A stretch of DNA of 34,099 bases, taken from positions 1 to 34,099 of the forward strand of contig JAJRRC010000051.1 in the NCBI GenBank assembly GCA_024279865.1. Direction: 5' to 3'. The translations under genes were made by a program, and so were the position numbers. Shown in pieces: positions 11,244 through 25,849 of this stretch. The first letter of the stretch is position 1, and each line of letters opens with the position of its first letter. Under the pieces are notes generated by a model, which searched no databases, was not told where the DNA came from, and saw only the letters and a program-made list of their open reading frames with translations. Origin of the DNA: Planctomycetota bacterium. Its GTDB lineage: Bacteria > Planctomycetota > Phycisphaerae > Phycisphaerales > Phycisphaeraceae.

Positions 11244-12282
11244 CAGAATCACCTCCAATGTATTGAAAAATCTGAATTCGATGGTTAAAGCTATCGCAGA
11301 CATAAATCCGATTTTGATCATCAATGACCAGACCCGTGGGAACTTGAAACTCTCCGAGTTGATTGCCAGGCGAACCAAAATTTAAAAGCAGTCTGCCTTG
11401 ACGATCAAAAATCTGGATATTGGAAAAATAGGAATCAATGACATAGATATGTCCCATTTGGTCGACTGCAACGCCTTTGGGGACGGCTAAAAATCCTGAA
11501 GCGTCGCCAGGCTCTCCCAGTGCAAAAAGAAATTGGCCTGTGGGGTCAAACACTTGGATGCGGAAGTTCAGTGAGTCGGTGACGTAAAGTTTTTTCTGTG
11601 CGTCCAAACACAAGTGTGTTGGATAATTGAACATGCCGACACCGGTACCCGCGCTCCCAATTTTTTTAATGACCTTGCCTTGCTGATCAAACACATAGAT
11701 ACAGTGTGCGATGGTATCAACCACATATAAAGATTCAGAGTCTGGGTCATAGGCCAATCCGGTGGGGCGTTGGAATCCTTCGGGGGGCGAATAAGACCGA
11801 ACTAATTTTCCTTTTTGCGTGATTTCCTGGACGGTTTTGTGAGCACTGTCCGAGACGATCAGGTTCGATCCGCGATAGATGATTCCCACCGGTGAGGTAA
11901 AATAGGTTTTGTTGACGCGGTCGATTAATCGGTGTTGGCCGTTTTTTAAATTAAACAGATGGACTGCTTGTAGTTCCTGATCGGTGACGGCAATTTGGCC
12001 GTCGGGCCCAATGGCCAAGCTGTTGGGGCGGTATAGAACTTGATCATGCTGACCGATGATGATTTGGCTGAGTTTGTCGAAAAACTTGGGTTGAGCAAGA
12101 TCACCGATGCCTTGGATTTGTTTGAGATAGATAATGCGTGGTTGGGCAGGGGGATCAGGCCACACCAAATTGACGGGGGATTCTTGGGGGGGCGTGGTAC
12201 AACTCGTCAGCATGGCAAGAAGTAGAAGTAATCCGCTTTTTGGGTGAGCAAAACAGTTGATTCTGTTGAAAAGTTGGTACAT
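11218..12282 (-). CDS. NHL-repeat lipoprotein (conduit operon)
   Basis: A 354-aa predicted lipoprotein, lipobox LTSC with Cys 28. The mature protein begins with a conserved lead-in (WPDPPAQPRIIYLKQIQG). It then holds about six NHL/beta-propeller repeats: RPNSLAIGPDGQIAVTD, SPVGIIYRGSNLIVSD, RPTGLAYDPDSESLYVVD, YPTHLCLDAQKKLYVTD, VPKGVAVDQMGHIYVIDS, VPTGLVIDDQNRIYVCDS. Such propellers bind proteins or ligands; no catalytic residues are evident. AAGGGAT precedes the ATG. It lies 10 nt after the barrel gene and overlaps the 12-heme gene, so it is a fixed part of the operon. It is a paralogue of the protein at 16009-17319, which shares the lead-in and propeller. Confidence 0.88.
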   Translation of the reverse strand: MYQLFNRINCFAHPKSGLLLLLAMLTSCTTPPQESPVNLVWPDPPAQPRIIYLKQIQGIGDLAQPKFFDKLSQIIIGQHDQVLYRPNSLAIGPDGQIAVTDQELQAVHLFNLKNGQHRLIDRVNKTYFTSPVGIIYRGSNLIVSDSAHKTVQEITQKGKLVRSYSPPEGFQRPTGLAYDPDSESLYVVDTIAHCIYVFDQQGKVIKKIGSAGTGVGMFNYPTHLCLDAQKKLYVTDSLNFRIQVFDPTGQFLFALGEPGDASGFLAVPKGVAVDQMGHIYVIDSYFSNIQIFDRQGRLLLNFGSPGNQLGEFQVPTGLVIDDQNRIYVCDSFNHRIQIFQYIGGDSDEGSSIQP

Positions 12283-12292
12283 CGTAGATCCC

Positions 12293-14302
12293 TTAAAAAG
12301 TGCGTTGTATATGAAAAGAAATCATCATGTCATCACCCTGGTTGTCTTGCTGGGTAAAAATGGAATAGGACGCATTGAGTATGATATCCATAAGCCCTTT
12401 ACGAAAAACAAGCTCGGCAGCAAGGCTCGTGAGGTCATCAATTTGACGGCCCTTGGATGTGCGGTAGCTTCCATTGATTCGGAGCAGTAGAGATTGATTG
12501 GCTTTGAAGGTGGTGCTGATGTCGGCATATAAAACTTTCTGAAAATCAGCGATATCATTGGCGCCTAAACTTTGAGCATATTGAATGTTTTCGTAGCCGC
12601 TGTTGGCGACCAGTGTAATGTCGCCGCGAAGAGGCAAGGTATAGCTTGACCACAGGCGTATCGCTTGCATGTTGGGCAAAAGGCGTTGCTGGCGTTTTTC
12701 AATTTCTCCGCCAAGTAGTAAGCTTCCCAGTGTCATATCCGCTCCCACGACCAAGATATTCAGTTGTTCGAGATTTTCGGGGTCTGTGCCAGCGGTGAGT
12801 TTTTGGTTTTGCGTACGATAATTCAGATAAACCGAGACGGGGTAATACAAGTTGTCGAACATCAAGCGATGGGTCCAGTATAGTGAGTTGGTGGTATGTT
12901 CGTTGTTGCTGGATTCTTTGGCGATGTAATCAATAAAGACAGTTTGGCCGTCTGCGATAGAGCCTGTGGCCATGCGGGCAATTTGAGTGAATTGTCCCAG
13001 TGTGCTTAGAAGGTAGTCGATGCCTTGGATGTAGGTGATGGTCCGGGTGGTATCGGTGACTACCAAACTGCCTAGTTGGATGTTGGGTTGGGTGAGCGTG
13101 GAGGCACTGAGTCCGGTGAGCGTGACGCTTTCATCGCGGACGTTTCGAGCAGAATTATTAAAAGATTTTTGCTCCATGGTGCGACTGATTTTGAGGGTGG
13201 AACGGTATTTCCCGACGGGAACATTTTTTCGATAATTGATATCCGCATAGGCACCTAGGAGTTTTTCAGTTCCATTTTCTAGCTTCCTATCGCTACTTTT
13301 TAGATAGGCGTCAATATCCATGCTGTCATAAATACGCCAGTTCAGACCTGTTTGTGCGGCAAAATTTTGATCTTGCTGGGTGTTGGTGGTATCGCGGCTC
13401 AATTGGCAGTCATAGTATGTTTTGAAATCGTTTGTGTGGTGAAGGGTGATTCGTTGGCTGATGGCGAGTAGGTCGTTCTCGAAAAATCCTTGTTGCTTGA
13501 CCATTCTGATGGTTCCGATCAAGTTTGGCCTCATCGGAAGTTGGCTCATGGTCCAGATATTTTGAAATGTAACTTGATCCCGCGTACTGGGTAGCTCCAG
13601 CACGCTTGCGGTTGATCCATTGCTATTGAGCGAAGTGGAGGTGTGGTCTGTTTGTTCCCGTTCAATACGCAAGACACTGTTCCAGTTGGGGTTTCGATTG
13701 TCTTGCATTTGTAGCGATGCAAACCAGGTATTCTTTTTATCGATGCGGATATCACTGGTTTCTTTCAAGGCTTGTCGTTCGAACCGCAAAGAGGTTGCAA
13801 TGGCTTTTTTCCAAGATAATTCAATCGCTTGGTTTTGTTGGTCAATGCCAATGGGACGTGCGAAACTTCGTGTGATGGTTTGTTTGGTTTGGCTGGCAGT
13901 GGCGTGAAGGGTCAGGATTTTTTTCTGGAACATTAATGCGTATAGCGAATAATCCATCACCATGCCGTCGCTGTCTTGCTGACGTCCGTCAATTTGGGTT
14001 CGGTTTTGATCTAGCCCCAGTTGCATGATGGCACCCCAGTCGATGAGGTTGGGGTGATAGGCATAGCCCAATAGATTCAAGGTGATTGATTCTTGGAGGC
14101 TTAAGCTTTTTTCTTCGTTTTCTGAGCCAGCGCGTTGGTGGTTTTCGGTTCGATGTTTTCCTTCTAGGACCCATTGGCCCGATATCTTTGTGATGGCCAT
14201 GGGCTTGACGGGATAGGACGGCTGCGCGAACGCGGGAGACGAGAACCCTGCGAGCAACATCCCCAAAGACAAGATTCTGATGCTTGTTTGTTTGAGGTTC
14301 AT
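12293..14302 (-). CDS. outer-membrane beta-barrel of a porin-cytochrome conduit
   Basis: A 669-aa exported protein with signal peptide MNLKQTSIRILSLGMLLAGF, cut after AFAQ. The mature chain is rich in alternating strands (VMDYSLYALMFQKKILTLHATAS, LYYPVSVYLNYRTQNQ, LLRINGSYRTSKG) and ends HIQRTF, with the terminal Phe of outer-membrane barrels. No Cys-heme motif is present. The ATG overlaps the TGA of the decaheme lipoprotein gene by 4 nt. A barrel encoded between multiheme lipoproteins is the layout of porin-cytochrome conduits (MtrAB-type, and the Geobacter Omb/Oma/Omc-type), so it probably sheathes a heme chain across the outer membrane. The sequence itself is not recognisably MtrB. Confidence 0.75.
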   Translation of the reverse strand: MNLKQTSIRILSLGMLLAGFSSPAFAQPSYPVKPMAITKISGQWVLEGKHRTENHQRAGSENEEKSLSLQESITLNLLGYAYHPNLIDWGAIMQLGLDQNRTQIDGRQQDSDGMVMDYSLYALMFQKKILTLHATASQTKQTITRSFARPIGIDQQNQAIELSWKKAIATSLRFERQALKETSDIRIDKKNTWFASLQMQDNRNPNWNSVLRIEREQTDHTSTSLNSNGSTASVLELPSTRDQVTFQNIWTMSQLPMRPNLIGTIRMVKQQGFFENDLLAISQRITLHHTNDFKTYYDCQLSRDTTNTQQDQNFAAQTGLNWRIYDSMDIDAYLKSSDRKLENGTEKLLGAYADINYRKNVPVGKYRSTLKISRTMEQKSFNNSARNVRDESVTLTGLSASTLTQPNIQLGSLVVTDTTRTITYIQGIDYLLSTLGQFTQIARMATGSIADGQTVFIDYIAKESSNNEHTTNSLYWTHRLMFDNLYYPVSVYLNYRTQNQKLTAGTDPENLEQLNILVVGADMTLGSLLLGGEIEKRQQRLLPNMQAIRLWSSYTLPLRGDITLVANSGYENIQYAQSLGANDIADFQKVLYADISTTFKANQSLLLRINGSYRTSKGRQIDDLTSLAAELVFRKGLMDIILNASYSIFTQQDNQGDDMMISFHIQRTF

Positions 14303-15492
14303 TTGACTGCTCCTTCGGGGGGCACAGTCAAGGCAGATTCTGCCTTTTGCTCGTCAGTAGGCGGTTTGGGTTGGGCCGGGGGGACCGGGGGAACCGGGGG
14401 AACCGGGGGTTGGGGGTTGAAGTTGGGCTTGGGACTAGGTTCGGCAGCAATGGTTTCGATAAGATTGGGCTTAAGCATGTGCGGGCGATCCATGTGATGG
14501 CCCTGATGACAGATCAGACAATCCACACGCGTGACTTTGGGATGACGCTCGCTGGCCCAGCTTTTTTCTTCATGACAGCCCAAGCACAACTTCTCTGCCT
14601 CGGGCTTAATGAGATGTTCCCGCGGCGAACGGTGAGGCGTGTGGCATTGGGTACATTGCCCTTTTTGTACCGGCGAATGCAACTTTCGACCATCTGTGGG
14701 AACGGTTTGCTTCTGATGACAGATCACACAAGCCTTGTCCACTTCATCCATCAATTTGTAGGATTGCTCAATAAGATGGCAGCGAGCGCAATCTTCACGT
14801 TTCCATTCAGGATGCTTAAACAGTTTGTCCGGATGGGTCTTGCGGCGTTGATAGGTTTGCGAATCCGCCAACAACAGACGGTTCCCCGCAGCATGAGGTT
14901 CGTGACAATTGCTGCAACGTAAGTTTTCCAATTGACTATGAAATGGGTCTTCTTTGAAAAATGCACCATCGTGGCATTGAAGACACAATTGGGGCTGGGC
15001 TTGGTGGAGCAATTTGGCGTGCTTGGATTTATGAGGCAGATGGCACAACGCGCACTGATTGAAAATCACCGGCCCATGAACCCAATCATCGGACGCAGTC
15101 TTATAATACGATTCGTGACAGCGACGGCATAACAAGGGGTCCGAAACCTTGGGCTCAAAAGATCCTTCGACACTATGACACGCTCGGCACTTACGATTCT
15201 CATAAGGACGATGGAGAAAAAACGCAGGTGTGTCGGACGCTTCCTTCTCTGCTTGAGCTTCCTTTTGAGCGAGTTCTTGTTTGAGCTGCTCGACTTCGCC
15301 GGGCTTGGGAACACCATCAAAGAAAAAACTTAAAACCCGGTATCGGTTTTCCTCGCCACATCCGCCCAAGCACACCACGAACCAGACCAAAACCAGGATC
15401 ACCCCCGTTGAACCACGTGTCGAAGACCCCACGCGATGGGTCGTGTTGACGCTAGGTCTAGGTGTAAAAAAAGTGACGAACCAGTCCCACAT
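14299..15492 (-). CDS. decaheme c-type cytochrome lipoprotein
   Basis: A 397-aa lipoprotein with a long basic N-region, a hydrophobic stretch (VILVLVWFVV) and lipobox CLGGC, Cys 45. A short charged coiled segment (about 65-87) precedes ten CXXCH sites between about residues 102 and 330 (CRACH, CRRCH, CALCH, CLQCH, CSNCH, CARCH, CVICH, CTQCH, CLGCH, CLICH). Many are followed by a nearby His (CHLPHK, CHEPHA, CHTPHRS, CHQGHH) able to serve as second ligand. The tail is proline-rich (PPVPPVPPVPPAQPKPP), encoded by a short tandem DNA repeat near 14375-14415. AAGGAG lies 11 nt before the ATG. It is first in the conduit operon, behind a sigma54-type promoter. Ten hemes and an anchor fit the periplasmic or surface electron carrier of an outer-membrane conduit. 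Confidence 0.9.
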   Translation of the reverse strand: MWDWFVTFFTPRPSVNTTHRVGSSTRGSTGVILVLVWFVVCLGGCGEENRYRVLSFFFDGVPKPGEVEQLKQELAQKEAQAEKEASDTPAFFLHRPYENRKCRACHSVEGSFEPKVSDPLLCRRCHESYYKTASDDWVHGPVIFNQCALCHLPHKSKHAKLLHQAQPQLCLQCHDGAFFKEDPFHSQLENLRCSNCHEPHAAGNRLLLADSQTYQRRKTHPDKLFKHPEWKREDCARCHLIEQSYKLMDEVDKACVICHQKQTVPTDGRKLHSPVQKGQCTQCHTPHRSPREHLIKPEAEKLCLGCHEEKSWASERHPKVTRVDCLICHQGHHMDRPHMLKPNLIETIAAEPSPKPNFNPQPPVPPVPPVPPAQPKPPTDEQKAESALTVPPEGAVK

Positions 15493-15518: not shown

Positions 15519-15534
15519 TGCAAGTTACATGCCT
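15519..15534 (-). promoter_or_regulatory. sigma54-type (-24/-12) promoter of the conduit operon
   Basis: On the minus strand AGGCAT-N5-TTGCA has GG and GC exactly 10 nt apart, as in the consensus TGGCAC-N5-TTGCW. The -12 element lies 27 nt before the ATG at 15492. The dyad at 15639-15654 is centred 113.5 bp upstream of the GG. Confidence 0.7.
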
Positions 15535-15638
15535 CGGCCAAACAATACGGGATAGATTTTAAATTGTTTATTAAGTTGTTTGTTTGCAACGTTTTGTAAA
15601 TTTATTCGATTTTAATTTTATTTTGGCCAAGTTACGGT

Positions 15639-15654
15639 TTCTTAAATTTGAGAA
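15639..15654. promoter_or_regulatory. upstream activator dyad TTCTT-N6-GAGAA
   Basis: TTCTTAAATTTGAGAA is one of four primary copies of TTCTY-N6-GAGAA in this island. It lies 113.5 bp from the minus-strand promoter. It is also about 240 bp from the plus-strand sigma54-like promoter at 15885-15900, so it might serve both directions. Confidence 0.65.
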
Positions 15655-15884
15655 TTTTTATCCTGCTGTGAATTTTTTCATTTGAAGTGCGGGCTGTGAT
15701 GATACTGTTTTTTAAAAAAACAATCTGGGCCAAACGTCTGTTTGTGGGAATGTTTCAAGAGCCTATTTGTGACTTAAGGTGTGTTTGGTTCGTTGATTAA
15801 AAGATGTCGAAAAAAGTGACCTGCCAATTGAGCTGTCAAGTTGAATGGTTTGTGATTCGATTCAAGAGAGTTGGTCAGGGCTGG

Positions 15885-15900
15885 TGGAATGACTTTTGCA
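15885..15900 (+). promoter_or_regulatory. sigma54-type promoter of the second NHL gene
   Basis: TGGAAT-N5-TTGCA with GG and GC 10 nt apart, about 109 nt before the ATG at 16009. No TTCTY-N6-GAGAA dyad is found at the usual 113 bp. The nearest is the divergent one, about 240 bp away. In the rest of the 15493-16008 gap I see only AT-rich sequence. Confidence 0.55.
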
Positions 15901-16008
15901 TATTCCTTGTGTAGGTGAATCATCCCGATGGCAAGTGGGGCAATTGATTCATTTTTTTAAGGGCGATTGGCCCTCAACATTGAACCTGAAATTAGAGGAG
16001 CGTATGCA

Positions 16009-17319
16009 ATGAACAAGCGTGGCAAACAGAACAGGGCGGTGGGGCAGATCATTTTGGCGTGTCTGGTTGTGGGGGCGGGGTTTGGGATCATGGGTTGTGG
16101 AACCACGCCCAAGTCGACTGACAAGTCGAACGCCAAGGCAGAGTCGGTGTTTTATCCTGCTGCGCCGGACACGCCTCGCCTCCAATTTTTGGTGAGTTTT
16201 AGTGATGATAGTCTTTGGAAAGAGAAGGAAAGCTCTTCATTTTCCAAGTGGGTGGTGGGTGAGCCCGATACCGAATCTCCGACCTATTTTGACAGTCCTT
16301 ATGGGCTGGAGGTACATGAAGGCAAGCTCTATATCTGTGATATCGGCCGAAAGATCGTACATGTTCTGGACTTGATCAATCGCCAGTATAAGATTCTTGG
16401 GACCGAAAAAACCTTTAAAAACCCGGTAAATATTACCATTGACGAAAATGGGATGAAGTATGTGTGCGACACCATTCATCGGAAAATTCTGGTGTACGAT
16501 CAGAACGATCAATATGTTGGCGCTCTGGGAGACCCAGAGAAGTGCTTGCCCATGGATGTGGTCCCGATTGATGGCAAGTTGGTGGTCGCTAATGTCGAAA
16601 AAGGCCAATTGGAGCTTTGGTCTAAAACTGGAGAGCTGCTTAAGATTCTTGCGACCAAAGGGGACGATCCGGATCAGTTGGGGATGCCGACCAATCTGGA
16701 TGTGACGAAAGAGGGGAATATTCTCGTTACCGATACGATGCTCCAAATGGTCAAGGTCTTTGATATCGAAGGTCGTCTTGTGGGAACCATTGGCAATCCT
16801 GGAATTGTCCCTGGCTTTTTTGCTCGTCCCAAAGGCGTGGCTGTTGCACCCGGCGGCGTGGTCTATGTGGCAGATGCGCAATGGGAAGTGATCGAGGTCT
16901 TTCGTGAGGATGGCAAGCTTCTGATGTTCTTCGGCGGGGCGAGTAGCAAGCCCCAAGGCATGGGAATGCCCGCGGGGGTGGTGGTTGATAAAACTGCCTT
17001 GCCAGCTTTTGCTAAATATGTAGATCCCCGATTTGACGCTCAATATCTATTGTTTGTCGCCAACCAATTCGGCAAGAATAAAATTGCAGTGTTTGCCTAC
17101 GGCGTACCCAAGGTCAAAATTGATAGACCTCTGCCCGAAACGGCCCTGATTCAAGGAAAGTCTAAACCTAAACCTAAAGCCATGCCTGATCTGAACATCA
17201 CGCCGAAGTCTGACGCAGCGTCTGCCGCCTCGGCAACGCCGGCGGTTCTGGAAACCTCGCCCAGCGTGGTAGAAGAGGCTTCGGACAAGGCATCGAAAAG
17301 CACGCCTGTGGCACCCTAA
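16009..17319 (+). CDS. NHL-repeat lipoprotein (stand-alone paralogue)
   Basis: A 436-aa predicted lipoprotein, lipobox IMGC with Cys 30. After the lead-in (APDTPRLQFLVSFSDD), NHL propeller repeats follow: SPYGLEVHEGKLYICDI, NPVNITIDENGMKYVCDT, MPTNLDVTKEGNILVTDT, RPKGVAVAPGGVVYVADA, and a divergent last one. A flexible Lys/Pro/Ala-rich tail of about 70 residues is absent from its paralogue at 11218-12282. AGAGGAG lies 8 nt before the ATG at 16009, which also gives a clean lipoprotein signal, so the open frame from 15967 is too long. It is transcribed divergently from the conduit operon, with its own sigma54-like promoter. Probably a surface or periplasmic scaffold that works with the cytochromes; function is inferred from context. 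Confidence 0.87.
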   Translation: MNKRGKQNRAVGQIILACLVVGAGFGIMGCGTTPKSTDKSNAKAESVFYPAAPDTPRLQFLVSFSDDSLWKEKESSSFSKWVVGEPDTESPTYFDSPYGLEVHEGKLYICDIGRKIVHVLDLINRQYKILGTEKTFKNPVNITIDENGMKYVCDTIHRKILVYDQNDQYVGALGDPEKCLPMDVVPIDGKLVVANVEKGQLELWSKTGELLKILATKGDDPDQLGMPTNLDVTKEGNILVTDTMLQMVKVFDIEGRLVGTIGNPGIVPGFFARPKGVAVAPGGVVYVADAQWEVIEVFREDGKLLMFFGGASSKPQGMGMPAGVVVDKTALPAFAKYVDPRFDAQYLLFVANQFGKNKIAVFAYGVPKVKIDRPLPETALIQGKSKPKPKAMPDLNITPKSDAASAASATPAVLETSPSVVEEASDKASKSTPVAP

Positions 17320-17330
17320 TGCCCATCCCA

Positions 17331-17422
17331 TTTAAAACGCGTGCGAATGGTGATTCGCAGAGACTGAATTGATAAGGCTTTATGAAAGTCTCAACGCATA
17401 CATAGTATATGCGATGCATATA
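17331..17422 (+). repeat. structured intergenic repeat, copy A
   Basis: One of four related ~90-bp copies. It contains the perfect hairpin GCGAAT-GGTG-ATTCGC (17343-17358), a GAGACT/AGTCTC stem (17360-17365 with 17387-17392) and an ATATGC/GCATAT-like end. It lies 11 nt after the NHL stop codon, between convergent genes. Confidence 0.7.
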
Positions 17423-17440
17423 ATCAATCGTTTGGCGAGC

Positions 17441-18310
17441 TTATTTGGTTTCGTGGCAGGCACGACAGAGTTGCTGGGATCGGTTGTCCATGACCAGCAT
17501 TTTGGAGTGGTCTGAAAAGGGGCTGTGGCAACTGAGGCATTGGACTTTGCCATCAAAGAGGCGAATGCGGGGGTCCAGTTGGGATTTTGCCTTGAGTCCC
17601 ATGTGTCGAATGCCGGTGAGTCCTGCGAACTTGTTGGTGTAGGGGACGTTGTAGGAGTGGCCGTGTCCGATGTCTGGACCGCCGGTTCCTTGATGACAAT
17701 CCATACAAGTTTGGCTCGTGACGGGGCGTTGGGTGAAAGCGTTTTCAGAAGAGGCCGCAGTCGAGGCAAAACCGATTTCTGCAGCCATGGGGTTATTTGA
17801 CCCGTGGACTTGTCCTAACACCATGCCATGCATTGCTTGGGTGTCAGAGGCGGCATGGCAATTGAGGCAAAAGTCGCGGCCCCTACGTGAGCCTCGCAGC
17901 AATTTGTCATGGTTTTGACGACTGGCTGCATGTTCCAACGCAGATTCGCCACGATGACAGGTAATGCACGACAGACGGCCATCTTTGAGCTTGAACCCTT
18001 TGGGCATGAGCATCGAAGGACGGATGTCCACCGGATGTGAGAGCTCACTGACCTGGGAGTGGCAATCTTCGCATCGTTCGTATTGCCAGTACCCTGAATA
18101 TTCCACGGGTAAGGGGGCTAGCGAGGGTTGGGCTGCGGCTCGCTTGGCGGCGGCATCCACATCCGACAGATTTTGTCCAAAAAACAGAACGCTTAGCAAC
18201 AGACAGACGACACCTGTAAAAATTTCCCATCGTTTTCGATAGTTCGTCCAAAATCTGGAAGTCTTCTTTTGGAAATTGGGGGAATTAGGCGTGCTCATTA
18301 AAATAGTCAT
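17441..18310 (-). CDS. hexaheme c-type cytochrome with an N-terminal membrane segment
   Basis: A c-type cytochrome of about 289 aa with six CXXCH sites (CEDCH, CITCH, CLNCH, CMDCH, CLSCH, CRACH). The N-terminus has a basic, probably cytoplasmic stretch and one hydrophobic segment (FTGVVCLLLSVLFFG), followed by Ala-rich sequence. It could be an uncleaved anchor or a long signal peptide. It is not a NapC/NrfH-type sequence. The start is uncertain: ATG at 18310 or 18298, neither with a strong ribosome binding site; the open frame to a GTG at 18472 would run into the regulatory region. It is transcribed divergently from the pentaheme gene. I infer an inner-membrane or periplasmic carrier that could link the quinone pool or periplasm to the outer-membrane conduit. 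Confidence 0.83.
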   Translation of the reverse strand: MTILMSTPNSPNFQKKTSRFWTNYRKRWEIFTGVVCLLLSVLFFGQNLSDVDAAAKRAAAQPSLAPLPVEYSGYWQYERCEDCHSQVSELSHPVDIRPSMLMPKGFKLKDGRLSCITCHRGESALEHAASRQNHDKLLRGSRRGRDFCLNCHAASDTQAMHGMVLGQVHGSNNPMAAEIGFASTAASSENAFTQRPVTSQTCMDCHQGTGGPDIGHGHSYNVPYTNKFAGLTGIRHMGLKAKSQLDPRIRLFDGKVQCLSCHSPFSDHSKMLVMDNRSQQLCRACHETK

Positions 18311-18414
18311 TCGGCCCGCTGTAAGCCTTGCTGGAGATGACTTTAGGCTATTTGAGAGGATTCTGTGATGGTTGTAGGTGCTGTTGGTTCTGGTCTGATT
18401 AAACCATATGCCAA

Positions 18415-18481
18415 ACTCCCAGATTGCCAGATTTCTCTTTATTGAGAAGAGATTGACAGGCTTATTTCTCACGGTTGGTTT
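18415..18481. promoter_or_regulatory. activator region of the pentaheme gene with dyad TTCTC-N6-GAGAA
   Basis: The dyad is at 18433-18448 and is centred 115.5 bp before the -24 GG. A half-site TTCTC (18466-18470) lies one 33-bp step nearer the promoter. The whole block, from ACTCCCAGAT at 18415, aligns with 19279-19344, including an identical 18-bp offset to the dyad. Confidence 0.65.
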
Positions 18482-18554
18482 TACAGCCAGACTTTAGGCT
18501 GGCGGTACCCCTCCTTAACAATGAAAAAAGACTGTTTTGTCCTAATTCCTTCTT

Positions 18555-18570
18555 TGGTATGTGAATTGCT
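18555..18570 (+). promoter_or_regulatory. sigma54-type promoter of the pentaheme gene
   Basis: TGGTAT-N5-TTGCT, with GG (18556-18557) and GC (18568-18569) 10 nt apart. The ATG is 36 nt downstream of the element. Confidence 0.65.
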
Positions 18571-18605
18571 TTTTATTTTTTTGAGAAAGGCGGCTGGGGA
18601 TTAAA

Positions 18606-19232
18606 ATGAAAACGATATTGACTGTAGTTGCGATAGTGGTCATCGTTGGCTTAAAAATGAGTTTGACTGCACAAGCGCATACATCGAATACTGCGTGTAT
18701 GAATTGCCATAACTTGCATGGTACCGGTGGTGTGGGGCATTCGAACTTTGGGTGCGCACTTTGCCATGTGCCTCACAACGCCAAAGCGGGCGATGTTCCT
18801 TTGTGGAACCCGTCTGTGCCCGATGGCAGTATTAACTTTTCCACGGGGTATTCCAGTACCACGATGGATGCTGCGGTGGGGGCGCCCAACGGAAGTAGCA
18901 AGCTTTGTTTAGGGTGTCATGATGGCGCATACACAGGGGCCCATGCTCCAAGTACGATCAATACCTTTAGTAGTTCTGGAGGGAGCGGCGGGATGGGGGC
19001 GTTTACCTCGAGCCATCCGATTTCTTTTGTTTATGACACCGCTTTGGCCAACGCTGATGGTGAGTTGCAAGACCCCACGGCAAGTCCTTCGGTTCGGGTG
19101 TTGCTTGATTCTGGGAGCAGAATGCAATGTGTGTCTTGCCACGAGGCTCATATTTCACCACATAGCCGATTTTTGCGAATGGAATACAAGGGAACTTCTC
19201 AAACTTTTTGTCGCACCTGCCATATTAAATAA
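18606..19232 (+). CDS. pentaheme c-type cytochrome, OmcE-like
   Basis: A 208-aa exported cytochrome with a signal peptide ending TAQA. CXXCH sites are at Cys 31, 50, 101, 175 and 202. The last four, with their spacing and surroundings (CHVPHN, VPLWNP, SSKLCLGCHDG, HPISFVYDTAL, MQCVSCHEAH, FLRMEY, FCRTCHIK at the very end), match the tetraheme protein encoded 440 nt downstream. The extra N-terminal heme (CMNCHNLHG) is the main difference. The layout matches what I recall of OmcE, the Geobacter tetraheme cytochrome that polymerises into extracellular filaments. GGCTGGGG precedes the ATG. It has its own sigma54-type promoter and activator region. Confidence 0.9.
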   Translation: MKTILTVVAIVVIVGLKMSLTAQAHTSNTACMNCHNLHGTGGVGHSNFGCALCHVPHNAKAGDVPLWNPSVPDGSINFSTGYSSTTMDAAVGAPNGSSKLCLGCHDGAYTGAHAPSTINTFSSSGGSGGMGAFTSSHPISFVYDTALANADGELQDPTASPSVRVLLDSGSRMQCVSCHEAHISPHSRFLRMEYKGTSQTFCRTCHIK

Positions 19233-19278
19233 AGTCCGTAGGCAGCGAGGGAACTGGTTTGATTGAGTCATGTGTCAG

Positions 19279-19344
19279 ACTCCCAGATCCTCTGATTTCT
19301 TCATGCTGAGAAGAGTTGAAAGAGAAAATTCCCACAGTTGATAG
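19279..19344. promoter_or_regulatory. activator region of the tetraheme gene with dyad TTCTT-N6-GAGAA
   Basis: The dyad is at 19297-19312 and is centred 113.5 bp before the -24 GG. ACTCCCAGAT begins 18 bp before it, as in the pentaheme region. A degenerate half-site, TTCCCACAGTTGAT, lies about one 32-bp step downstream. Confidence 0.65.
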
Positions 19345-19416
19345 CGCCGAGTGGCAGAAGGGAGGAAAACAGTCTTGAAGAAGCTAAAAAACGCCTTTTT
19401 AATTTTTTTAGGGGTT

Positions 19417-19432
19417 TGGCACAGTAATTGCA
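19417..19432 (+). promoter_or_regulatory. sigma54 promoter of the tetraheme gene
   Basis: TGGCAC-AGTAA-TTGCA fits the sigma54 consensus at every defined position. It is the best such match in the window. Confidence 0.8.
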
Positions 19433-19444
19433 ACTACCTTAAAT

Positions 19445-19671
19445 ATAGTCATGGCAGGTAAAAGAGAAATGCTATGATAAGTAGGGAAAAACTTTTAAGC
19501 GTGAAGAAGAAAAACAAATGTACGAATCACCTAAAAGTAAAAAAAAGCAATTGTCTGTTCGGGCTCCGCCAACATGATCAGGCCAGAAACGCTTTTTAAT
19601 GACAAGACGCAAATATGATAATTAGAACTTTGGAATTGACTTTTTTTTAACATTCCTTGAAAGGGAAAAAA
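19445..19671 (+). other. long untranslated leader of the tetraheme cytochrome
   Basis: Transcription from the sigma54 promoter would give a leader of about 230 nt. It is A-rich and holds a possible 19-codon ORF at 19518-19577 (MYESPKSKKKQLSVRAPPT) and an overlapping GTG-started basic frame from 19501. Neither has convincing translation signals. No known riboswitch fold was recognised. Confidence 0.4.
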
Positions 19672-20238
19672 ATGAAAACTATCATTACATCACTTATGAT
19701 TGTTGCCATGCTCGGGCTGGGACTCAGTTCCGTTGTGCAGGCTGCGGGTCACTCCGATCGCGGTTGCGACCTTTGTCACGTCCCCCATAATGCCGCTGCG
19801 GGCGATGTTCCTCTGTGGAATCCTGCTGTGCCAGACGGCAGCGTGAACTTCGCAACTGATTTCTACACCAGCAACACGCTGGACGCCACCACGGGCGCAC
19901 CAGACGGAGCCAGCAAGCTTTGTCTCGGTTGTCATGACGGAACCTATGGCGGTGCCCATAACCCTGGAACCGGCAAGTCCTTCGGTGTTGGTGCGGGTAT
20001 GGGAACGCTTTCGGCAACTCATCCCATCTCCTTTGTTTATGACACTGCTTTGGCAACCGCTGATGGTGAATTGCTCGACCCATCTGGAACGCCTACAGTG
20101 GCAGCTCTTCTTGATCCCAACAGCAAAGTGCAATGCACCTCTTGCCACGAAGTTCATCAGAGTAACAACAACAGCTACCTGCGAATGGCTTACAGCGGAA
20201 CGTCCGAAACCTTCTGCCGAACTTGCCATGTCAAATAA
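19672..20238 (+). CDS. tetraheme c-type cytochrome, OmcE-like nanowire candidate
   Basis: A 188-aa exported cytochrome with a signal peptide ending VVQA, leaving a mature chain of about 164 residues. CXXCH sites are at Cys 32, 84, 155 and 182, the last four residues from the C-terminus region. Additional His in CHVPHN, YGGAHNP, THPISF and CHEVHQ, plus AAGHS, give five candidates for the four distal heme ligands. The order and spacing of CXXCHxPH, SKLCLGCHDG, HPISF-Y, QCTSCHEVH and FCRTCH resemble Geobacter OmcE. The start is ATG at 19672, with AAAGGG upstream; an in-frame TTG at 19657 would precede the signal peptide. A strong terminator follows. Polymerisation into filaments is an inference. 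Confidence 0.9.
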   Translation: MKTIITSLMIVAMLGLGLSSVVQAAGHSDRGCDLCHVPHNAAAGDVPLWNPAVPDGSVNFATDFYTSNTLDATTGAPDGASKLCLGCHDGTYGGAHNPGTGKSFGVGAGMGTLSATHPISFVYDTALATADGELLDPSGTPTVAALLDPNSKVQCTSCHEVHQSNNNSYLRMAYSGTSETFCRTCHVK

Positions 20239-20285
20239 ACTGGCATGATCAAGACAGGGGTTTGTTCAACCTTGTCAGTATTTTC

Positions 20286-20322
20286 AAGAGCGGTACAGCT
20301 AAGGCTGTGCCGCTCTTTTTTT
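20286..20322 (+). terminator. rho-independent terminator after the tetraheme cytochrome
   Basis: AAGAGCGGTACAGC (20286-20299) pairs with GCTGTGCCGCTCTT (20304-20317) through 14 bp with one G-T pair and a 4-nt loop. A run of seven T follows the stem's last C. Confidence 0.92.
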
Positions 20323-20392
20323 ATACTTGCTCTGTTGTCTGCTCATTGGCAAAAGTGAGAAAACCGGATCATCCAAGCGTATCTTTTTATAT

Positions 20393-20441
20393 TTCTCAAT
20401 AATAAGAATCGCCAAGATTGTCTACTTCTCAATACTGAGAA
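20393..20441. promoter_or_regulatory. paired activator dyads before the ccm operon
   Basis: TTCTC-AATACT-GAGAA (20426-20441) is centred 112.5 bp before the -24 GG of the ccm promoter. A second copy, TTCTC-AATAAT-AAGAA (20393-20408), lies exactly 33 bp (about three helical turns) upstream, as expected for two dimers of an activator on one face of the DNA. Confidence 0.65.
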
Positions 20442-20544
20442 AGCTAAAGGGGGTTTTGAGGACATGTGTTTTTTGCAAGAACGTAAGCTGTTTTGAATAC
20501 ATGGTTTGAAAACGATTTTTCAGTAGCTTGAATCTGGCGTGCTT

Positions 20545-20560
20545 TGGCATAGGTCTTGTT
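20545..20560 (+). promoter_or_regulatory. sigma54-type promoter of the ccm operon
   Basis: TGGCAT-N5-TTGTT. The -24 half is near consensus and the -12 half has GT in place of GC, so this is the weakest of the four in the dyad set. It lies 38 nt before the ccmE ATG. Confidence 0.55.
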
Positions 20561-20598: not shown

Positions 20599-21060
20599 AT
20601 GAAAGACAATGCCATGACGCATGCACGTATCAAAATTTTAATCGCTGCGATTGCTCTTATTGGATCGGTGACTTATCTCTCCGTCGCAGGCGTTAAAAAA
20701 GGGTGGGTCTACTACCTGAAGGTTGATCAGTTCTTAGAACAGGACACCTATCAAGGCCAGCGTGTGCGTTTGCATGGCAAAGTGGGGGCGGAATCGTTGA
20801 TCATTGATCGCGTCAATTTTCTGACAGACTTTCAACTCGTGGGCATCGAGGGTCAAGTTCATGTGATTTACGAAGGTTCAATCCCAGACATGTTCGAGGC
20901 CGGCCGCGAGGTGGTCGTCGAAGGCAAGCTCGATGAAGCAGGCATCTTCCGTGCCGACCAACTCATGACCAAGTGTGCCAGTAAATACAAAGCCGAAGAA
21001 GAAACCCAGAACAACACTGATACTGGTACCGATCTTGATCAACTGGAGACAGGACAATGA
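20599..21060 (+). CDS. ccmE: cytochrome c maturation heme chaperone CcmE, Cys (CXXXY) type
   Basis: A 153-aa periplasmic heme chaperone with an N-terminal membrane anchor (IKILIAAIALIGSVTYL) and an OB-fold core (YYLKVDQFLEQDTYQGQRVRLHGKV, IEGQVHVIYEGSIPDMFEAGREVVVEGKL, GIFRADQLMTKC). The heme-attaching residue is usually His in an HxxxY motif; here it is Cys 126 in C-A-S-K-Y130. This Cys variant is known from Desulfovibrio and archaea, in Ccm systems that lack CcmG and CcmH. The C-terminal tail is acidic and probably disordered. A second in-frame ATG at 20614 is possible. Its TGA overlaps the ccmF ATG by 4 nt. It is first in the ccm operon, behind a sigma54-type promoter. Confidence 0.92.
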   Translation: MKDNAMTHARIKILIAAIALIGSVTYLSVAGVKKGWVYYLKVDQFLEQDTYQGQRVRLHGKVGAESLIIDRVNFLTDFQLVGIEGQVHVIYEGSIPDMFEAGREVVVEGKLDEAGIFRADQLMTKCASKYKAEEETQNNTDTGTDLDQLETGQ

Positions 21061-23105
21061 ATATACTGATTGGCCAATACAGTCTAGCTTTTGCTGCAGT
21101 CGTGGCCGTGATCGTCATACTCTGCAGTGCGATTCATTTAGCCAAGCCTGCGTGGCCCACCTTGAAATTAGCGCGTTGGCTGGTGGGTTTGTTTTTTCTT
21201 TTGCTTTGTGTCTGCAGCGGGTCTTTGTGGATTGCGTTTTTGAGCGATGATTTTACGGTGGCATACGTTGCGGGCTACTCTGAACATGCGTTGCCGACGG
21301 CTTATAAAATGGCAGCCTTCTGGGCGGGTCAAGAAGGAAGCCTCTTGTTGTGGGCGGTATTGCTTGGGGGCATGAGTGCGGTGGCTGTGTTTCAATGGCG
21401 TCATCATACCGGTCGCCAGGCAGTGGGCGAGTTGTTTGGGTTGATGCTGGTGAGCGGTTTTTTTGCGGTGTTGATGGTCTTTGCCGCCAATCCTTTTAAA
21501 CTGATGGAACAAGTGGTCACCGATGGGAACGGCCTCAATCCCATGCTGCAAGATCCTGCGATGATTGCCCATCCACCTCTTTTATTCATCGGCTACGCAG
21601 GCTACACCATTCCCTTTGCAGCGATGATTGGAGCTCTTTTTGCTGGTGGAAAGGATTTTCACTGGATATTGGCCATGCGTCGATGGTTGATATTTTCATG
21701 GCTATTTTTGACCATGGGGATCATGTTGGGCGCTTGGTGGGCTTACATCGAACTGGGCTGGGGAGGCTACTGGGCCCGGGACCCTGTTGAAAACGCATCG
21801 TTACTTCCTTGGTTAACGGGTACGGCATTGCTGCACTCGATTGTGATTCCACAACTCAAACGATGGAATGTTTTTCTGGTCACGCTCTCCTTTTTACTAT
21901 GCTTGTTTGGAACCTATATCACACGCAGCGGCGTGATTCAATCAGTCCATGCGTTTGGTGAATCATTGGTCGGGACTTTTTTCCTGATCTTCTTAGGCGT
22001 TTGTGCCGTGCTGAGTTTGGTCTTGATTTTCTGGCGGTTTCGAAGCCTGCAGTCCGGGCAGTGTATTGACCATGTATTCAGTAAGCCGGGATTATTTTTG
22101 ATCACCAATATCCTGTTGACCTTGATGATGTTGATCACGTTGGTGGGAACGATTTTTCCCTTGATTAGCAGTTTGTTTATGCCTGAGCCTGTGAGTGTGG
22201 GGCCTGCGTTTTACAATCAAGTGATCTTGCCTTTGGCGATTGTGGTCTTTGCGATCATGTGTCTGGGTCCCATGTTGACGTTGGCTCCGGACGTGAGTGA
22301 TCGAATCAAACGGGGGATTCAATTGCCCAGCTTGTTGGCGGTGATTGCAGTGGGCGTGGCCTATTTTGTCGTAGGTATTGTGAACCCATGGTCCTTGGTT
22401 TGCACGGGTCTTGCCGTTTTCGGTTTTGCAGTGATCCTTGCGCAGTTGTATGTGGCCTGTGGTGAATATCGTCAGACTCATGATGTTTCTGGCCCCCAGG
22501 CGATCATCCTCATGATCGATGCCAATCATCGACGTTACGGCGGACAGACGATTCATTTGGGAATGCTCTTGTTCATGATCGGTGTGGTCGGGTCCGGCGT
22601 CTATGGCACAAGTGAAAATCATCGCATGGACTCCGGCGACGAAATTAAAATCGGCAACCAAACACTGACCTATTACAAACTCGCTGAAGCCAAACGGGGG
22701 AATTACACCGCCGTCGAAACAAAAATGACTTTGACCGATGCCAATGGAGCGGTTCGCCCCTTGCAGCCTGAACTGCGGTTTTATCCCAAGTCCGAAAAAG
22801 CCAACACCCATGTGGGACTGGACTGTTCTTTGAGCCGAGATATTTATGTGACCCTCTCTGGCTGGGAAGCTGGAGGGACCGTTGCTGCATTGGTGGTGCG
22901 GGTGAACCCCTTGGTGACGTGGATATGGATTGGTAGCGTGATCGCCACGCTCGGAGCCATGTTCAGTATGCTTCCTGCCTTGCTCAAACCTGCTGGGGTG
23001 TGTCGCCCTCATGTCGCGAGGCCTCTTCAAACAGAACAAACCAATTTGGCGGTGGCAACCACGCCCTTGACTTCCAAATCTGAAAAAGGAAATTGTGAAT
23101 CATGA
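21057..23105 (+). CDS. ccmF: cytochrome c heme lyase subunit CcmF
   Basis: A 682-aa polytopic inner-membrane protein that joins heme from CcmE to apocytochrome CXXCH motifs. The family landmarks are present: GQEGSLLLWA, AHPPLLFIGYAG (His 172), the tryptophan-rich periplasmic loop GWGGYWARDPVENASLLPW, LLHS (His 260), SVHAFGE (His 298) and GGQTIHLGM (His 500), corresponding to the four conserved CcmF histidines. In the W-rich motif the usual W-D before PVEN reads R-D (WARDPVEN). The periplasmic C-terminal domain (about 515-640) is present. It overlaps ccmE and the next gene by 4 nt each, so translation is coupled. Confidence 0.96.
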   Translation: MNILIGQYSLAFAAVVAVIVILCSAIHLAKPAWPTLKLARWLVGLFFLLLCVCSGSLWIAFLSDDFTVAYVAGYSEHALPTAYKMAAFWAGQEGSLLLWAVLLGGMSAVAVFQWRHHTGRQAVGELFGLMLVSGFFAVLMVFAANPFKLMEQVVTDGNGLNPMLQDPAMIAHPPLLFIGYAGYTIPFAAMIGALFAGGKDFHWILAMRRWLIFSWLFLTMGIMLGAWWAYIELGWGGYWARDPVENASLLPWLTGTALLHSIVIPQLKRWNVFLVTLSFLLCLFGTYITRSGVIQSVHAFGESLVGTFFLIFLGVCAVLSLVLIFWRFRSLQSGQCIDHVFSKPGLFLITNILLTLMMLITLVGTIFPLISSLFMPEPVSVGPAFYNQVILPLAIVVFAIMCLGPMLTLAPDVSDRIKRGIQLPSLLAVIAVGVAYFVVGIVNPWSLVCTGLAVFGFAVILAQLYVACGEYRQTHDVSGPQAIILMIDANHRRYGGQTIHLGMLLFMIGVVGSGVYGTSENHRMDSGDEIKIGNQTLTYYKLAEAKRGNYTAVETKMTLTDANGAVRPLQPELRFYPKSEKANTHVGLDCSLSRDIYVTLSGWEAGGTVAALVVRVNPLVTWIWIGSVIATLGAMFSMLPALLKPAGVCRPHVARPLQTEQTNLAVATTPLTSKSEKGNCES

Positions 23106-24256
23106 AAATCACCTCGTCCATTTCAATGAGCATGGTTGTGTTACTGGTCAGCATGGGCTGGAGCTTGCAGGTTCCGACTTCTGTTTATGCCGTCTCAGAA
23201 GTGAAAACGCCCACGCCCAAATCGCATCCCGTGATTCAACACGCCGCCACGCAGCCGGCAGCAATCCAGTCCGCAACGACCCCGCCTAGCAGCAAAGATG
23301 TGTTGCCCAGCGGCCATCCGGCTTTGCCTGGCAGTGGACAAAAACTCGGTGCAAAACCTCCAGCCAATGCAGGTCATACTTATAACTTTCACGCGAATGT
23401 CACCTTGCAGGTCAATCGCCCGGGGACCGCAGGGCCACCTCTGAAAGGCTTGCCCGTGACGGTTTGGTTGATTCATCAAAATGAACCCTTGCGGGAATAC
23501 AAACGCCAACTGGGCGCGTCTGCAAGTTTACAAATCAAGGATGTGAAACTTTCTGTTCCGGTGATGCCATTGGTTCGGGTGACTTATGATGGCGTGGATT
23601 ACGAAGTACGTGGCCCGATTCTCAATACGCGTCAGCCTTCAGCAAAAATTGAGGTTCAAGTTTATCCCACCACGACCAGTAAGCCTCCTTTGCATGTGGC
23701 GATGCGGCATGTCATGCTTCGCCGTGGGGCTCAAGGTATTTGGGTTCATGAAGTGATTACGCTGGAAAATCCCACGCAACGCGCATGGATCAATGCTGCA
23801 AAGAAAACGCAAAATACGCCAGGCACGTTTAGTCTGAAGTTGCCTCAGGATGTGGGAGAAATCCGATTGGGGAAAGGGTTTTCCAGTCAGTACACCCGCT
23901 ATGAGGGAGGGGTGCTTAAGTTAGACAATCCGGTGAATCCGGGTACGAATTCTTTTGAAATTGACTATGCGGTGAAGGTTGTGAATGGGAAATGTGTTTT
24001 GACGCTTCAAACATCTGAGTCGGTGAAGCATTTGATGGTCTTTGTGCCAGAAGATTTGGTGGTGCTCAAAACCACAGGCTTTGCCGAGGAATCTGAGGCC
24101 AGTCTTTCAGAAAAGAAAGTTAATGTGTATCAAAGTAAAAATTTGCCAAGCCAAGTGGTCGCTCGCTTGGAAATCCAAGCACCTACACCTCAAGTTGCAG
24201 TGCCCAAACAAACCGGCCCCAAAGCAATCATTCCTACCAGCAAAGGACGACCATGA
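23102..24256 (+). CDS. uncharacterised exported protein inside the ccm operon
   Basis: A 384-aa protein with signal peptide (about 1-30, ending VYA). A Pro/Thr/Ala-rich stretch with the motif LPSGHPALPG (about 68-77) follows. Next comes a beta-rich domain (FHANVTLQVNRPG, LPVTVWLIHQNEPLREY, PLVRVTYDGVDYEVRG), a second domain (MRHVMLRRGAQGIWVHEVITLENPTQRAWI), and a Pro-rich tail. There is no CXXC thioredoxin motif, so it is not CcmG or CcmH. It overlaps both ccmF and ccmA by 4 nt (ATGA), so it is an integral operon member, in the place where other bacteria often carry ccmG/ccmH. A GHP-x-LP motif occurs, as I recall, in exported proteins beside cytochrome genes in other phyla. Its function is unknown; handling of apocytochrome or heme is a guess from position. 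Confidence 0.8.
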   Translation: MKITSSISMSMVVLLVSMGWSLQVPTSVYAVSEVKTPTPKSHPVIQHAATQPAAIQSATTPPSSKDVLPSGHPALPGSGQKLGAKPPANAGHTYNFHANVTLQVNRPGTAGPPLKGLPVTVWLIHQNEPLREYKRQLGASASLQIKDVKLSVPVMPLVRVTYDGVDYEVRGPILNTRQPSAKIEVQVYPTTTSKPPLHVAMRHVMLRRGAQGIWVHEVITLENPTQRAWINAAKKTQNTPGTFSLKLPQDVGEIRLGKGFSSQYTRYEGGVLKLDNPVNPGTNSFEIDYAVKVVNGKCVLTLQTSESVKHLMVFVPEDLVVLKTTGFAEESEASLSEKKVNVYQSKNLPSQVVARLEIQAPTPQVAVPKQTGPKAIIPTSKGRP

Positions 24257-25035
24257 CTGTCCAGGCTACAACCATCATGCCCTCTGATACCACAACGGAT
24301 GAATTGGGTACGCAATCGATTCCTGCGATCAAGGCAATTGATTTGTGTAAAATAATTGATGATCGACCGATTCTCAACGGCCTGACTTTTCAGATTGAAA
24401 CAGGGAAATGCACCGCTTTGCTCGGTGCCAACGGTGCAGGCAAAACCACCTTGATGCATATTCTTGCAACACTCAGCTCGCCCACCGCAGGCCAGCTGAA
24501 TATATTCGGCAAACCAATAACCCGATCTTCCGTGGCCACGCGACGTGAGATCGGCATGATCGGCCATCAGTCGATGCTGTATCGGGATTTGTCCGCTCTG
24601 GAAAACCTGATCTTTTTCGGCAGGTTGTACAGCGTGGATAAGCCGGCAGTGCGGGCGATGGATTTACTTCATCGCGTGGGATTGGCAGATCGCGCGCCCG
24701 ATGCCGTGCGAACGTTCAGTCGAGGCATGACCCAGCGTTTGTCGATTGCGAGAGCTTTGATGCATCATCCCAAGTTATTACTGGCGGATGAACCGTTTGC
24801 GGGATTGGATGTCCCATCGGTTTTGGCGGTGGAGCAGTTACTCGCGGATTTGGTTGAAGAAGGTTGTACCGTGGTTCTTTCGAACCATGATGTGGGGCGA
24901 ACCCTTCAAATTACGGATCATGTTCTGGTGTTACATCATGGGCAGGTTGTTTTGGATACCCCTTCGGGGTCGATCACCGAATTGCAGATTACAGAGCAAA
25001 TGTGCCGCGGCCCTGAGGGGATGGGGTCAACATGA
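24253..25035 (+). CDS. ccmA: ABC transporter ATP-binding protein CcmA
   Basis: A 260-aa cytoplasmic ATPase of the CcmABC complex, which releases holo-CcmE. Walker A (GANGAGKTT), Q-loop region (GMIGHQSMLYRDL), signature (FSRGMTQRLSIARAL), Walker B (LLLADEP) and switch His (LSNHD) are all present and intact. About 30 extra N-terminal residues precede the usual start of the fold. It begins at an ATG overlapping the preceding TGA and ends overlapping ccmB, both by 4 nt. Confidence 0.93.
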   Translation: MTVQATTIMPSDTTTDELGTQSIPAIKAIDLCKIIDDRPILNGLTFQIETGKCTALLGANGAGKTTLMHILATLSSPTAGQLNIFGKPITRSSVATRREIGMIGHQSMLYRDLSALENLIFFGRLYSVDKPAVRAMDLLHRVGLADRAPDAVRTFSRGMTQRLSIARALMHHPKLLLADEPFAGLDVPSVLAVEQLLADLVEEGCTVVLSNHDVGRTLQITDHVLVLHHGQVVLDTPSGSITELQITEQMCRGPEGMGST

Positions 25036-25709: not shown

Positions 25710-25740
25710 GCATCATTGATTTCGCATGTGATACCACTCA

Positions 25741-25834: not shown

Positions 25835-25849
25835 AGATGGGACTGAAAT

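Follow-up and report, generated by a model that had tools for sequence, protein, structure and literature searches.

How does a bacterium of the Planctomycetota bring multiheme cytochromes encoded by separate transcription units, together with the machinery maturing them, under common control? This question is raised by a 34,099-nucleotide stretch of DNA (contig JAJRRC010000051.1, positions 1 to 34,099, of the Phycisphaeraceae assembly GCA_024279865.1; hereafter the window) carrying a leftward operon for a presumed porin-cytochrome conduit, with its putative outer-membrane barrel, and three rightward units, namely a pentaheme cytochrome gene, a tetraheme cytochrome gene and a cytochrome c maturation (Ccm) operon, followed by the gene of an NtrC-type response regulator (26805-28223, plus strand). 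An earlier note, made from the letters of the window, had proposed that sigma54 coordinates these four units as one regulon serving cytochromes and cytochrome maturation, with a new activator site, and this proposal is supported by comparative footprints in other Phycisphaerae genera. Judging from sequence comparisons, we consider it probable (at about 85%) that the dyad TTCTCA-N4-TGAGAA is the operator through which this regulator would activate a sigma54-dependent cytochrome and maturation regulon as one unit.

The four units share a two-part control region, as had been claimed: each has an exact dyad (pattern TTCTY-N6-GAGAA, searched on either strand) and a -24/-12 element. Sigma54 promoters follow the consensus TGGCACG-N4-TTGCW, that is GG-N10-GC or GG-N10-GT, and elements were scored here over 12 specified positions. 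On the minus strand, the predicted operator dyad of the conduit operon (15639-15654, TTCTCAAATTTAAGAA) is centred 113.5 bp upstream of the first G of the GG in its element (15519-15534, AGGCATGTAACTTGCA; score 11). On the plus strand, this distance is 115.5 bp for the pentaheme gene (predicted dyad 18433-18448, TTCTCTTTATTGAGAA; element 18555-18570, TGGTATGTGAATTGCT, score 11), 113.5 bp for the tetraheme gene (predicted dyad 19297-19312, TTCTTCATGCTGAGAA; element 19417-19432, TGGCACAGTAATTGCA, score 12) and 112.5 bp for the ccm operon (predicted dyad 20426-20441, TTCTCAATACTGAGAA; element 20545-20560, TGGCATAGGTCTTGTT, score 12). Coordinates and distances agree with those first reported and the observation of four dyad-promoter regions is confirmed. 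The second sites placed by the earlier note one 33-bp step away were likewise recovered, as a full predicted dyad in the ccm region (20393-20408, plus strand, TTCTCAATAATAAGAA), exactly 33 bp from the next one, and as a TTCTC half-site (18466-18470, plus strand) one step downstream of the 18433 dyad. To these can be added a weak second site of the tetraheme gene (19329-19344, plus strand, TTCCCACAGTTGATAG), 32 bp downstream of the 19297 dyad and absent from that note.

Such an arrangement is not expected from chance. Dyads with at most one mismatch gave 18 strand-matches in the window against 3.83 expected, a number reached in none of 100 shuffles, and an exact dyad placed 105-120 bp from an element scoring at least 11 was observed four times and in none of 300 dinucleotide shuffles of the window. 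The genome totals 3.42 Mb over 122 contigs and contains 15 distinct exact dyads, six of them within the 34-kb window; one of these, TTCTCTGCTTTGAGAA at 25234-25249, lies inside the ccmB-like gene. When both strands are counted, 21 exact dyads compare with 14 for the reversed control, so that the bare dyad is little above the genome background and it is its placement that carries information. A dyad equally common throughout the genome had been named as grounds for giving up the proposal; the bare dyad is indeed near background, while its placement with a promoter is non-random.

A second locus of the same genome carries the same signature. At contig 79:45056, an exact dyad precedes a CbcL-like operon, its centre 57.5 bp from an excellent element, TGGCACGGCATGTGCT, and a second dyad (one mismatch) is found 33 bp further up, 90.5 bp from the element, i.e., at the same step as in the ccm region. 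This operon encodes a CbcL-like protein, a NapC/NirT-type cytochrome with 11 CXXCH motifs and two cytochromes with 13 and 12 CXXCH. The CbcL-like protein has 10 CXXCH and a b561-type C-half (PF01292 at residues 420-549; a formate dehydrogenase gamma match at 470-658 falls under its cut-off) and thus combines the multiheme N-half and the b-type, HydC/FdnI-like C-half that characterize CbcL, MtrH and MtoC. Ahead of the operon are two kinase-like genes, of which one has both HisKA and ATPase domains. The other eight of the nine exact dyads checked in context outside the window showed no multiheme open reading frame (ORF) in the stretch examined. The regulon of four units hence stands as far as the four units go, not in its confinement to them, the CbcL-like operon of contig 79 also belonging to it.

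Comparing homologous loci for conserved dyads, a check suggested at the outset, revealed dyads at fixed distances in other genera. The layout comparison covered the conduit and CbcL-like operons of relatives, whose stretches were fetched around regulator orthologues, the CbcL-like gene and the barrel, and were chosen by protein homology, not by the dyad. Upstream of the CbcL-like operon, a dyad with at most one mismatch is centred 57.5 bp from the GG in 9 of 13 genomes, our own included. Upstream of the conduit operon, such a dyad lies at 112.5-113.5 bp in half of the 12 genomes compared (our own, G067, G068, G069, G070 and G028, the element of the last scoring 9) and at other distances in G006 (123.5 bp) and G033 (98.5 bp), while dyads with two mismatches are found at 112.5 bp in G008 and 107.5 bp in G026; in G015 and G021, the fetched DNA starts inside the first gene or near it. 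G067 also has a thirteenth, distant match to the barrel (22% identity), with no dyad. Outside the family, 4 of 19 fetched loci (L357, L361, L368 and L370) carry a dyad with at most one mismatch 56.5-58.5 bp before elements standing upstream of genes with 11 or 13 CXXCH; dyads precede multiheme genes at 89.5 bp in L363 and 100.5 bp in L365, and the remaining 13 loci have no dyad in that position. The layout at about 110 bp, considered the usual one in the earlier note, is therefore present without being the sole one, the 57.5-bp distance being commoner among the regions examined, a set weighted by the operons that were fetched. Sites of the other genomes give the consensus TTCTCA-N4-TGAGAA. A matrix built from 20 of them as training sites ranks the six exact dyads of the window 1 to 6, partly by construction since these training sites were picked with the same pattern (at most one mismatch), and this ranking is not counted as evidence.

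The motif also emerges when promoters alone are used as anchors. From other genomes, we held out 40 non-redundant promoter regions selected blind to the dyad (ORF with at least 4 CXXCH, element scoring at least 10), among which TTCTC-N6-GAGAA ranked first among the palindromes formed by 13 spacers x 1024 half-sites: it is present in 17 regions and tied only with its own register shift, TCTCA-N4, the next palindrome occurring in 8. This motif set spans several families. Allowing Y/R at the inner arm base, a dyad with at most one mismatch is found in 20 of the 40 regions, and a control with swapped arms gave one match. By distance, the 21 held-out dyads fall at 56.5-58.5 bp (12, nine of them at exactly 57.5 bp), at 112.5-113.5 bp (4) or elsewhere (5). 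As a negative control, 58 exact dyads were taken, among the matches listed, from 17 of the 37 family genomes devoid of the regulator, which mostly lack these cytochrome operons as well and one of which (G001, 66% complete) belongs to the same genus as the regulator-bearing G033. None of the 58 has an ORF with at least 3 CXXCH within 3 kb (or the shorter stretch left at a contig end); three have an element scoring at least 10 at 40-180 bp (59.5, 65.5 and 135.5 bp), none of these elements standing at 57.5 or 112-116 bp. Among 56 exact dyads from the 13 other genomes that carry the regulator, 7 are associated with a multiheme gene, against 0 of 58 in the control (Fisher p 0.006), and all seven have a sigma54 element, at 57.5 bp in six cases and 112.5 bp in one. 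Of the 49 others, 40 lie in coding sequence according to a crude ORF caller, which indicates that the bare dyad is mostly background.

Regarding the activator, the window regulator has the domain content of NtrC-type proteins, with a sigma54 AAA+ domain (PF00158, E 1.9e-68) bearing a GAFTGA-type loop, a REC domain (PF00072) and a Fis-type helix-turn-helix (PF02954). Its loop reads GSFTGA, as in 5 of 28 aligned sequences (the window protein and 27 others), 22 having GAFTGA and one neither; GSFTGA is described as a permitted variant in the excerpted text of PMC4641369. Asp71 is present in all 28 sequences and, from its position, would be the phospho-acceptor. The C-terminal recognition region is nearly invariant among them, as expected if the operator is conserved. 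Among named proteins, the regulator is closest (65-71% identity) to those of four metagenome-assembled genomes titled Phycisphaeraceae or Phycisphaera. Within the family, an orthologue (E <=1e-120) is found in 14 of 51 genomes, the CbcL-like gene in 13, of which 12 are shared with the regulator, and the barrel in 12, all shared; the corresponding counts (both, regulator alone, gene alone, neither) are 12/2/1/36 for the CbcL-like gene (p 7e-9) and 12/2/0/37 for the barrel (p 6e-10). A different response-regulator-type activator of the same genome, used as a control, occurs in 47 of the 51, so that this co-occurrence is not a general property of activators. One RpoN match and seven strong matches to sigma54 activators were found in the genome; another three, weak matches to PF00158, are taken to be other AAA+ proteins. 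The gene neighbourhood points in the same direction in part of the genomes: the regulator follows the ccm operon in the window, directly follows the conduit operon in G033 (L151) and, in G026 (L144), is part of a cluster of genes that diverges from the CbcL-like operon. Stretches around the family regulators contain an ORF with at least 4 CXXCH in 7 of 13 cases. In a class-wide draw of 397 genomes, the regulator was found in 21 at E <=1e-150, and 17 of the 19 regulator stretches from outside the family contain an ORF with at least 3 CXXCH, L355 and L356 having none. The link between regulator and dyads, initially marked as inference, thus gains independent support from co-occurrence, a partly shared gene neighbourhood, a nearly invariant recognition region and the near-ubiquity of the control activator, and the protein encoded at 26805-28223 appears as the best candidate activator.

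Dyads were also encountered in other contexts. A strong one at contig 79:41786-41801 (L196 5287-5302) lies between a small ORF matching YgbA_NO (PF11756), which it directly follows, and the next gene, and a dyad is likewise kept in L141 (6501), L143 (6818) and L154 (3391), 3' of a small ORF and upstream of a gene for an AhbD-like radical S-adenosylmethionine (SAM) protein; no convincing sigma54 element was found in these three loci towards the AhbD-like gene. Near the YgbA_NO-type ORF, the dyad might serve autoregulation or form a terminator-like hairpin. Sigma54-like hits of the form TGGG(G/A)CA(G/A)TG(C/T)TTGCA, some 150 bp away from the dyads of L141, L143, L145 and L154, were discounted, the one of L145 being read as part of a cysteine-rich coding stretch of the small ORF (YgbA_NO, PF11756, in our genome). 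Similar hits in L149, L196 and L354 were discounted too, the reading frame having been checked in L145 only. Dyads directly before the regulator in L141, L142 and L147 (TTCCCGATAATGAGAA) fall within the 3' end of a radical SAM gene and were rejected as evidence; the L146 version has one more change. They may reflect coding conservation, yet L150 keeps the dyad with residues read as different.

Could the dyad belong to another protein? It might be the operator of a different sigma54 activator, the window regulator being a mere neighbour, and we hold this to be unlikely. There are indeed seven candidates in the genome, of which two were compared for co-occurrence, leaving five outside the comparison, and G074 (78% complete) keeps a CbcL-like operon with its 57.5-bp dyad while the regulator was not found there. 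Against these points, the distribution of the regulator over the 51 genomes follows that of the cytochrome operons, and the regulator sits inside or beside such operons in several of them, and the one other response-regulator-type activator compared is nearly ubiquitous. Still less probable, in our opinion, is a regulator independent of sigma54, such as a repressor or a redox sensor, which would bind the dyad and merely share the promoters. Conserved dyads with no convincing downstream element, such as those before the AhbD-like genes of L141, L143 and L154, speak for this possibility, but a repressor site would be expected closer to the start site, and neither the fixed distance between dyad and GG (exactly 57.5 bp in 9 of 21 held-out cases) nor the second sites 32-33 bp away are readily explained by it. 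A pattern born of chance, or of the shared ancestry of AT-rich spacers, finds some basis in the near-background frequency of the bare dyad and in the relatedness of the comparison genomes; we judge it very improbable, as the dyad and promoter are largely kept in L142 and L145 while much of the spacer diverged, the motif came first in held-out regions from several families, no shuffle out of 300 reproduced the layout, and an A+T-rich site of this kind is rare at the composition of the relatives' stretches (57-68% G+C).

Assigning the dyad to the window regulator has also to accommodate a number of discordant findings. Six comparison genomes share one genus (g9), and the counts are consequently not independent. 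The CbcL-like operons of G033 (56.5 bp, two mismatches) and G028 (69.5 bp with two mismatches, 102.5 bp with one) have degenerate dyads, and those of G021 and G015 no convincing one among the 13 genomes. G024 possesses the regulator and neither the CbcL-like nor the conduit operon, and 6 of the 13 family regulator stretches have no ORF with at least 4 CXXCH. No dyad with fewer than three mismatches is present at 26301-26805, upstream of the regulator's own gene. The exact dyad at 25234 has no element scoring at least 9 at 57.5 or 112-116 bp, and the one at contig 79:41786 is followed by no convincing sigma54 element. Half of the held-out regions (20 of 40) have no dyad with at most one mismatch; some elements in these regions are probably not real promoters. 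Finally, two earlier motif tests gave weak ranks for TTCTC-N6, 121 of 9216 with a crude non-coding mask and 84 of 3520 over whole loci among half-sites with two G/C; neither was promoter-anchored, and the promoter-anchored test was run after them.

If the dyad is indeed the operator of the NtrC-type regulator, a mechanism can be proposed, in which binding, activation, start sites, signal, electron-transfer function and the direction of electron flow are all predicted. The regulator would be phosphorylated, putatively by the PilS-like histidine kinase encoded next to the contig-79 operon, and would then occupy the dyad in dimeric form. Where a promoter has a second site at 32-33 bp, dimers would lie on one face of the DNA, favouring assembly of the AAA+ ring; DNA looping and ATP-driven opening by RNA polymerase-sigma54 would follow at the -24/-12 element 57.5 or about 113 bp downstream. 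The outcome would be that a quinol oxidase, periplasmic carriers, an outer-membrane conduit and the means of attaching hemes are produced in a coordinated way. One pathway would be switched on as a unit, made up of the contig-79 cytochromes linked to quinol (CbcL-like and NapC/NirT-type), the periplasmic carriers with four and five hemes, the conduit (decaheme cytochrome, barrel and 11-heme cytochrome) and the Ccm machinery by which hemes are attached. Beyond this genome, ccm, tetraheme and pentaheme units are presumed members of the regulon. Heme supply may be included as well, as suggested by the apparent operon that the regulator forms with AhbD- and AhbC-like radical SAM genes in L141 and similar relatives (scoring 440 bits against an NCBIfam cut-off of 500 and 483 against one of 650, respectively). 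In our genome, the closest AhbD-like matches (<=41% identity) are on contig 35, apart from the regulator; this contig has no exact dyad and, in the fetched stretches, one with a single mismatch. A bolder view, which we find rather doubtful, would see here a master switch governing extracellular electron transfer throughout the class Phycisphaerae, with one regulator, two fixed operator distances and staged assembly, extended to the AhbC/AhbD-like genes of relatives: the 57.5-bp distance would time the quinol-oxidase module apart from the conduit and maturation module at about 113 bp, and the amount of phosphorylated regulator would decide in what sequence the electron path is assembled. Concerning the sensors, a kinase-like protein with HAMP and HisKA and no detected ATPase domain (L196 5987-7084, L141 3849-5051) adjoins a full kinase in L196 (the PilS-like one) and in L141, forming a degenerate or split sensor pair.

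The genes under this proposed control deserve a closer description. On the minus strand, the conduit operon encodes in order a decaheme cytochrome (14299-15492, 10 CXXCH), the 669-residue presumed barrel (12293-14302), an NHL-repeat protein (11218-12282) and a cytochrome with 11 CXXCH and an MtrC/MtrF-like domain (9546-11378). The first partially matches chain 6r2q_A (E 3.3e-9, residues 253-311 only), which is labelled 'Cystathionine beta-synthase' in the PDB table and which we take to be MtrCAB. The barrel is conserved in 12 genomes, the 11 others of the family that encode an orthologue all carrying the regulator as well, and it matches neither Pfam nor, with E values as high as 1, the PDB. 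The N-terminal stretch of the 11-CXXCH cytochrome matches 7tfs_A (residues 68-261, E 1.1e-26) and 9yuq_N (residues 76-261, E 2.9e-22); 7tfs is presumably the OmcE cytochrome filament of Geobacter, which would place a filament-type domain in a conduit protein. On the plus strand, the pentaheme (18606-19232) and tetraheme (19672-20238) cytochromes have 5 and 4 CXXCH, respectively. The tetraheme leader (19445-19671) is long and A-rich, with about 228 nt from the predicted start to the ATG, and has no Rfam match at gathering scores. The ccm operon (20599-26563, plus strand) encodes CcmE (Pfam match, just under the NCBIfam cut-off), an NrfE/CcmF-type lyase, a 384-residue protein with no match in NCBIfam, and CcmA-, CcmB- and CcmC-like proteins scoring under the NCBIfam cut-offs; a modest -24/-12-like site (25681, score 10) precedes the ccmC-like gene. 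A 6-CXXCH cytochrome gene (17441-18472, minus strand), whose listed start is probably too early, diverges from the pentaheme gene, the 18433 dyad lying in their shared upstream region, where no element scoring at least 10 is aimed at it. A -24/-12-like element with no dyad (15885-15900, plus strand, score 11) stands upstream of an NHL-type gene (15967-17319).

This kind of system is known; the regulon is a new one and wider than the earlier note had proposed. In the NtrC-type, glnA-like layout, palindromic sites lie about 100-140 bp upstream of a -24/-12 promoter, tandem sites being about three helical turns apart. The system described here shares its REC-AAA+-Fis regulator, upstream palindromes, tandem sites and promoter type and differs by its half-site, its regulon, its Planctomycetota host and a second distance class at 57.5 bp. 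In MtrCAB-type layouts, a decaheme cytochrome, a barrel and an outer cytochrome are encoded together, as are a decaheme cytochrome, a presumed barrel and an outer cytochrome in the present operon, which in contrast includes an NHL protein and a barrel with no sequence match to a solved structure or Pfam. AioXSR-type systems associate a PhnD-like sensor protein, a kinase and an NtrC-type regulator; a PhnD-like protein is found near the regulator in L046 and kinases on the same contig in L141; the eight proteins scanned on contig 79 of our genome include two kinases and no PhnD-like match, and the present system is not assigned to this type.

Among described regulons, DVU3142 of Desulfovibrio, with predicted sigma54 control of the ohc octaheme-cytochrome operon, is comparable in that a sigma54 activator adjoins a multiheme-cytochrome operon with predicted sites and a -24/-12 promoter delineated by comparative genomics (PMC4641369). 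DVU3142 is nevertheless a single-component regulator of one operon (PMC4641369), whereas a two-component regulator is proposed here for two loci, with a regulon spanning quinol oxidase, carriers, conduit and Ccm. According to the excerpted text of the same study, the promoter and the closest activator site are about 100 nucleotides apart in Desulfovibrio vulgaris, and placements at 57.5 or 113 bp thus fit known distances. The RpoN regulon of Geobacter sulfurreducens links sigma54 to extracellular-electron-transfer cytochromes and, as far as the available part of PMC2725144 goes, is a sigma-factor regulon with no single dedicated operator; the word 'maturation' does not occur in the main text of that paper. 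CbcL/MtrH/MtoC quinol oxidases, of which two homologues are tabulated for Planctomycetes, share with the contig-79 protein a multiheme N-half fused to a HydC/FdnI-like b-type C-half; the latter differs by its 10 CXXCH, and regulation is not treated in the portion of PMC6295460 consulted. A Phycisphaerae genome survey searched for mtrBC and discussed nitrogen and sulfur respiration, its main text having no occurrence of 'sigma' (PMC11266412); a tunnel-biofilm study mentions, in the legend of a figure, both porin-cytochrome complexes and regions of sigma54 type (PMC10732223); the main text of a sigma54 survey does not contain the word 'cytochrome' (PMC12316311). In the open-access literature, among the matches listed, no paper on a planctomycete cytochrome regulon or a TTCTY-N6-GAGAA operator was found; the dyad string returned no match, nor did AioR.

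Most Phycisphaerae have not been cultured, and ideas of how they respire come largely from lists of genes. Through a common operator, unlinked operons for a quinol oxidase, carriers, a conduit and Ccm would be bound into one physiological unit, and the pathway acquires a DNA signature that can be searched for. Multiheme cytochromes of Planctomycetota would thereby have a defined sigma54 regulon, with a candidate regulator and a probable kinase now named, whose signal would tell when these bacteria use the pathway.

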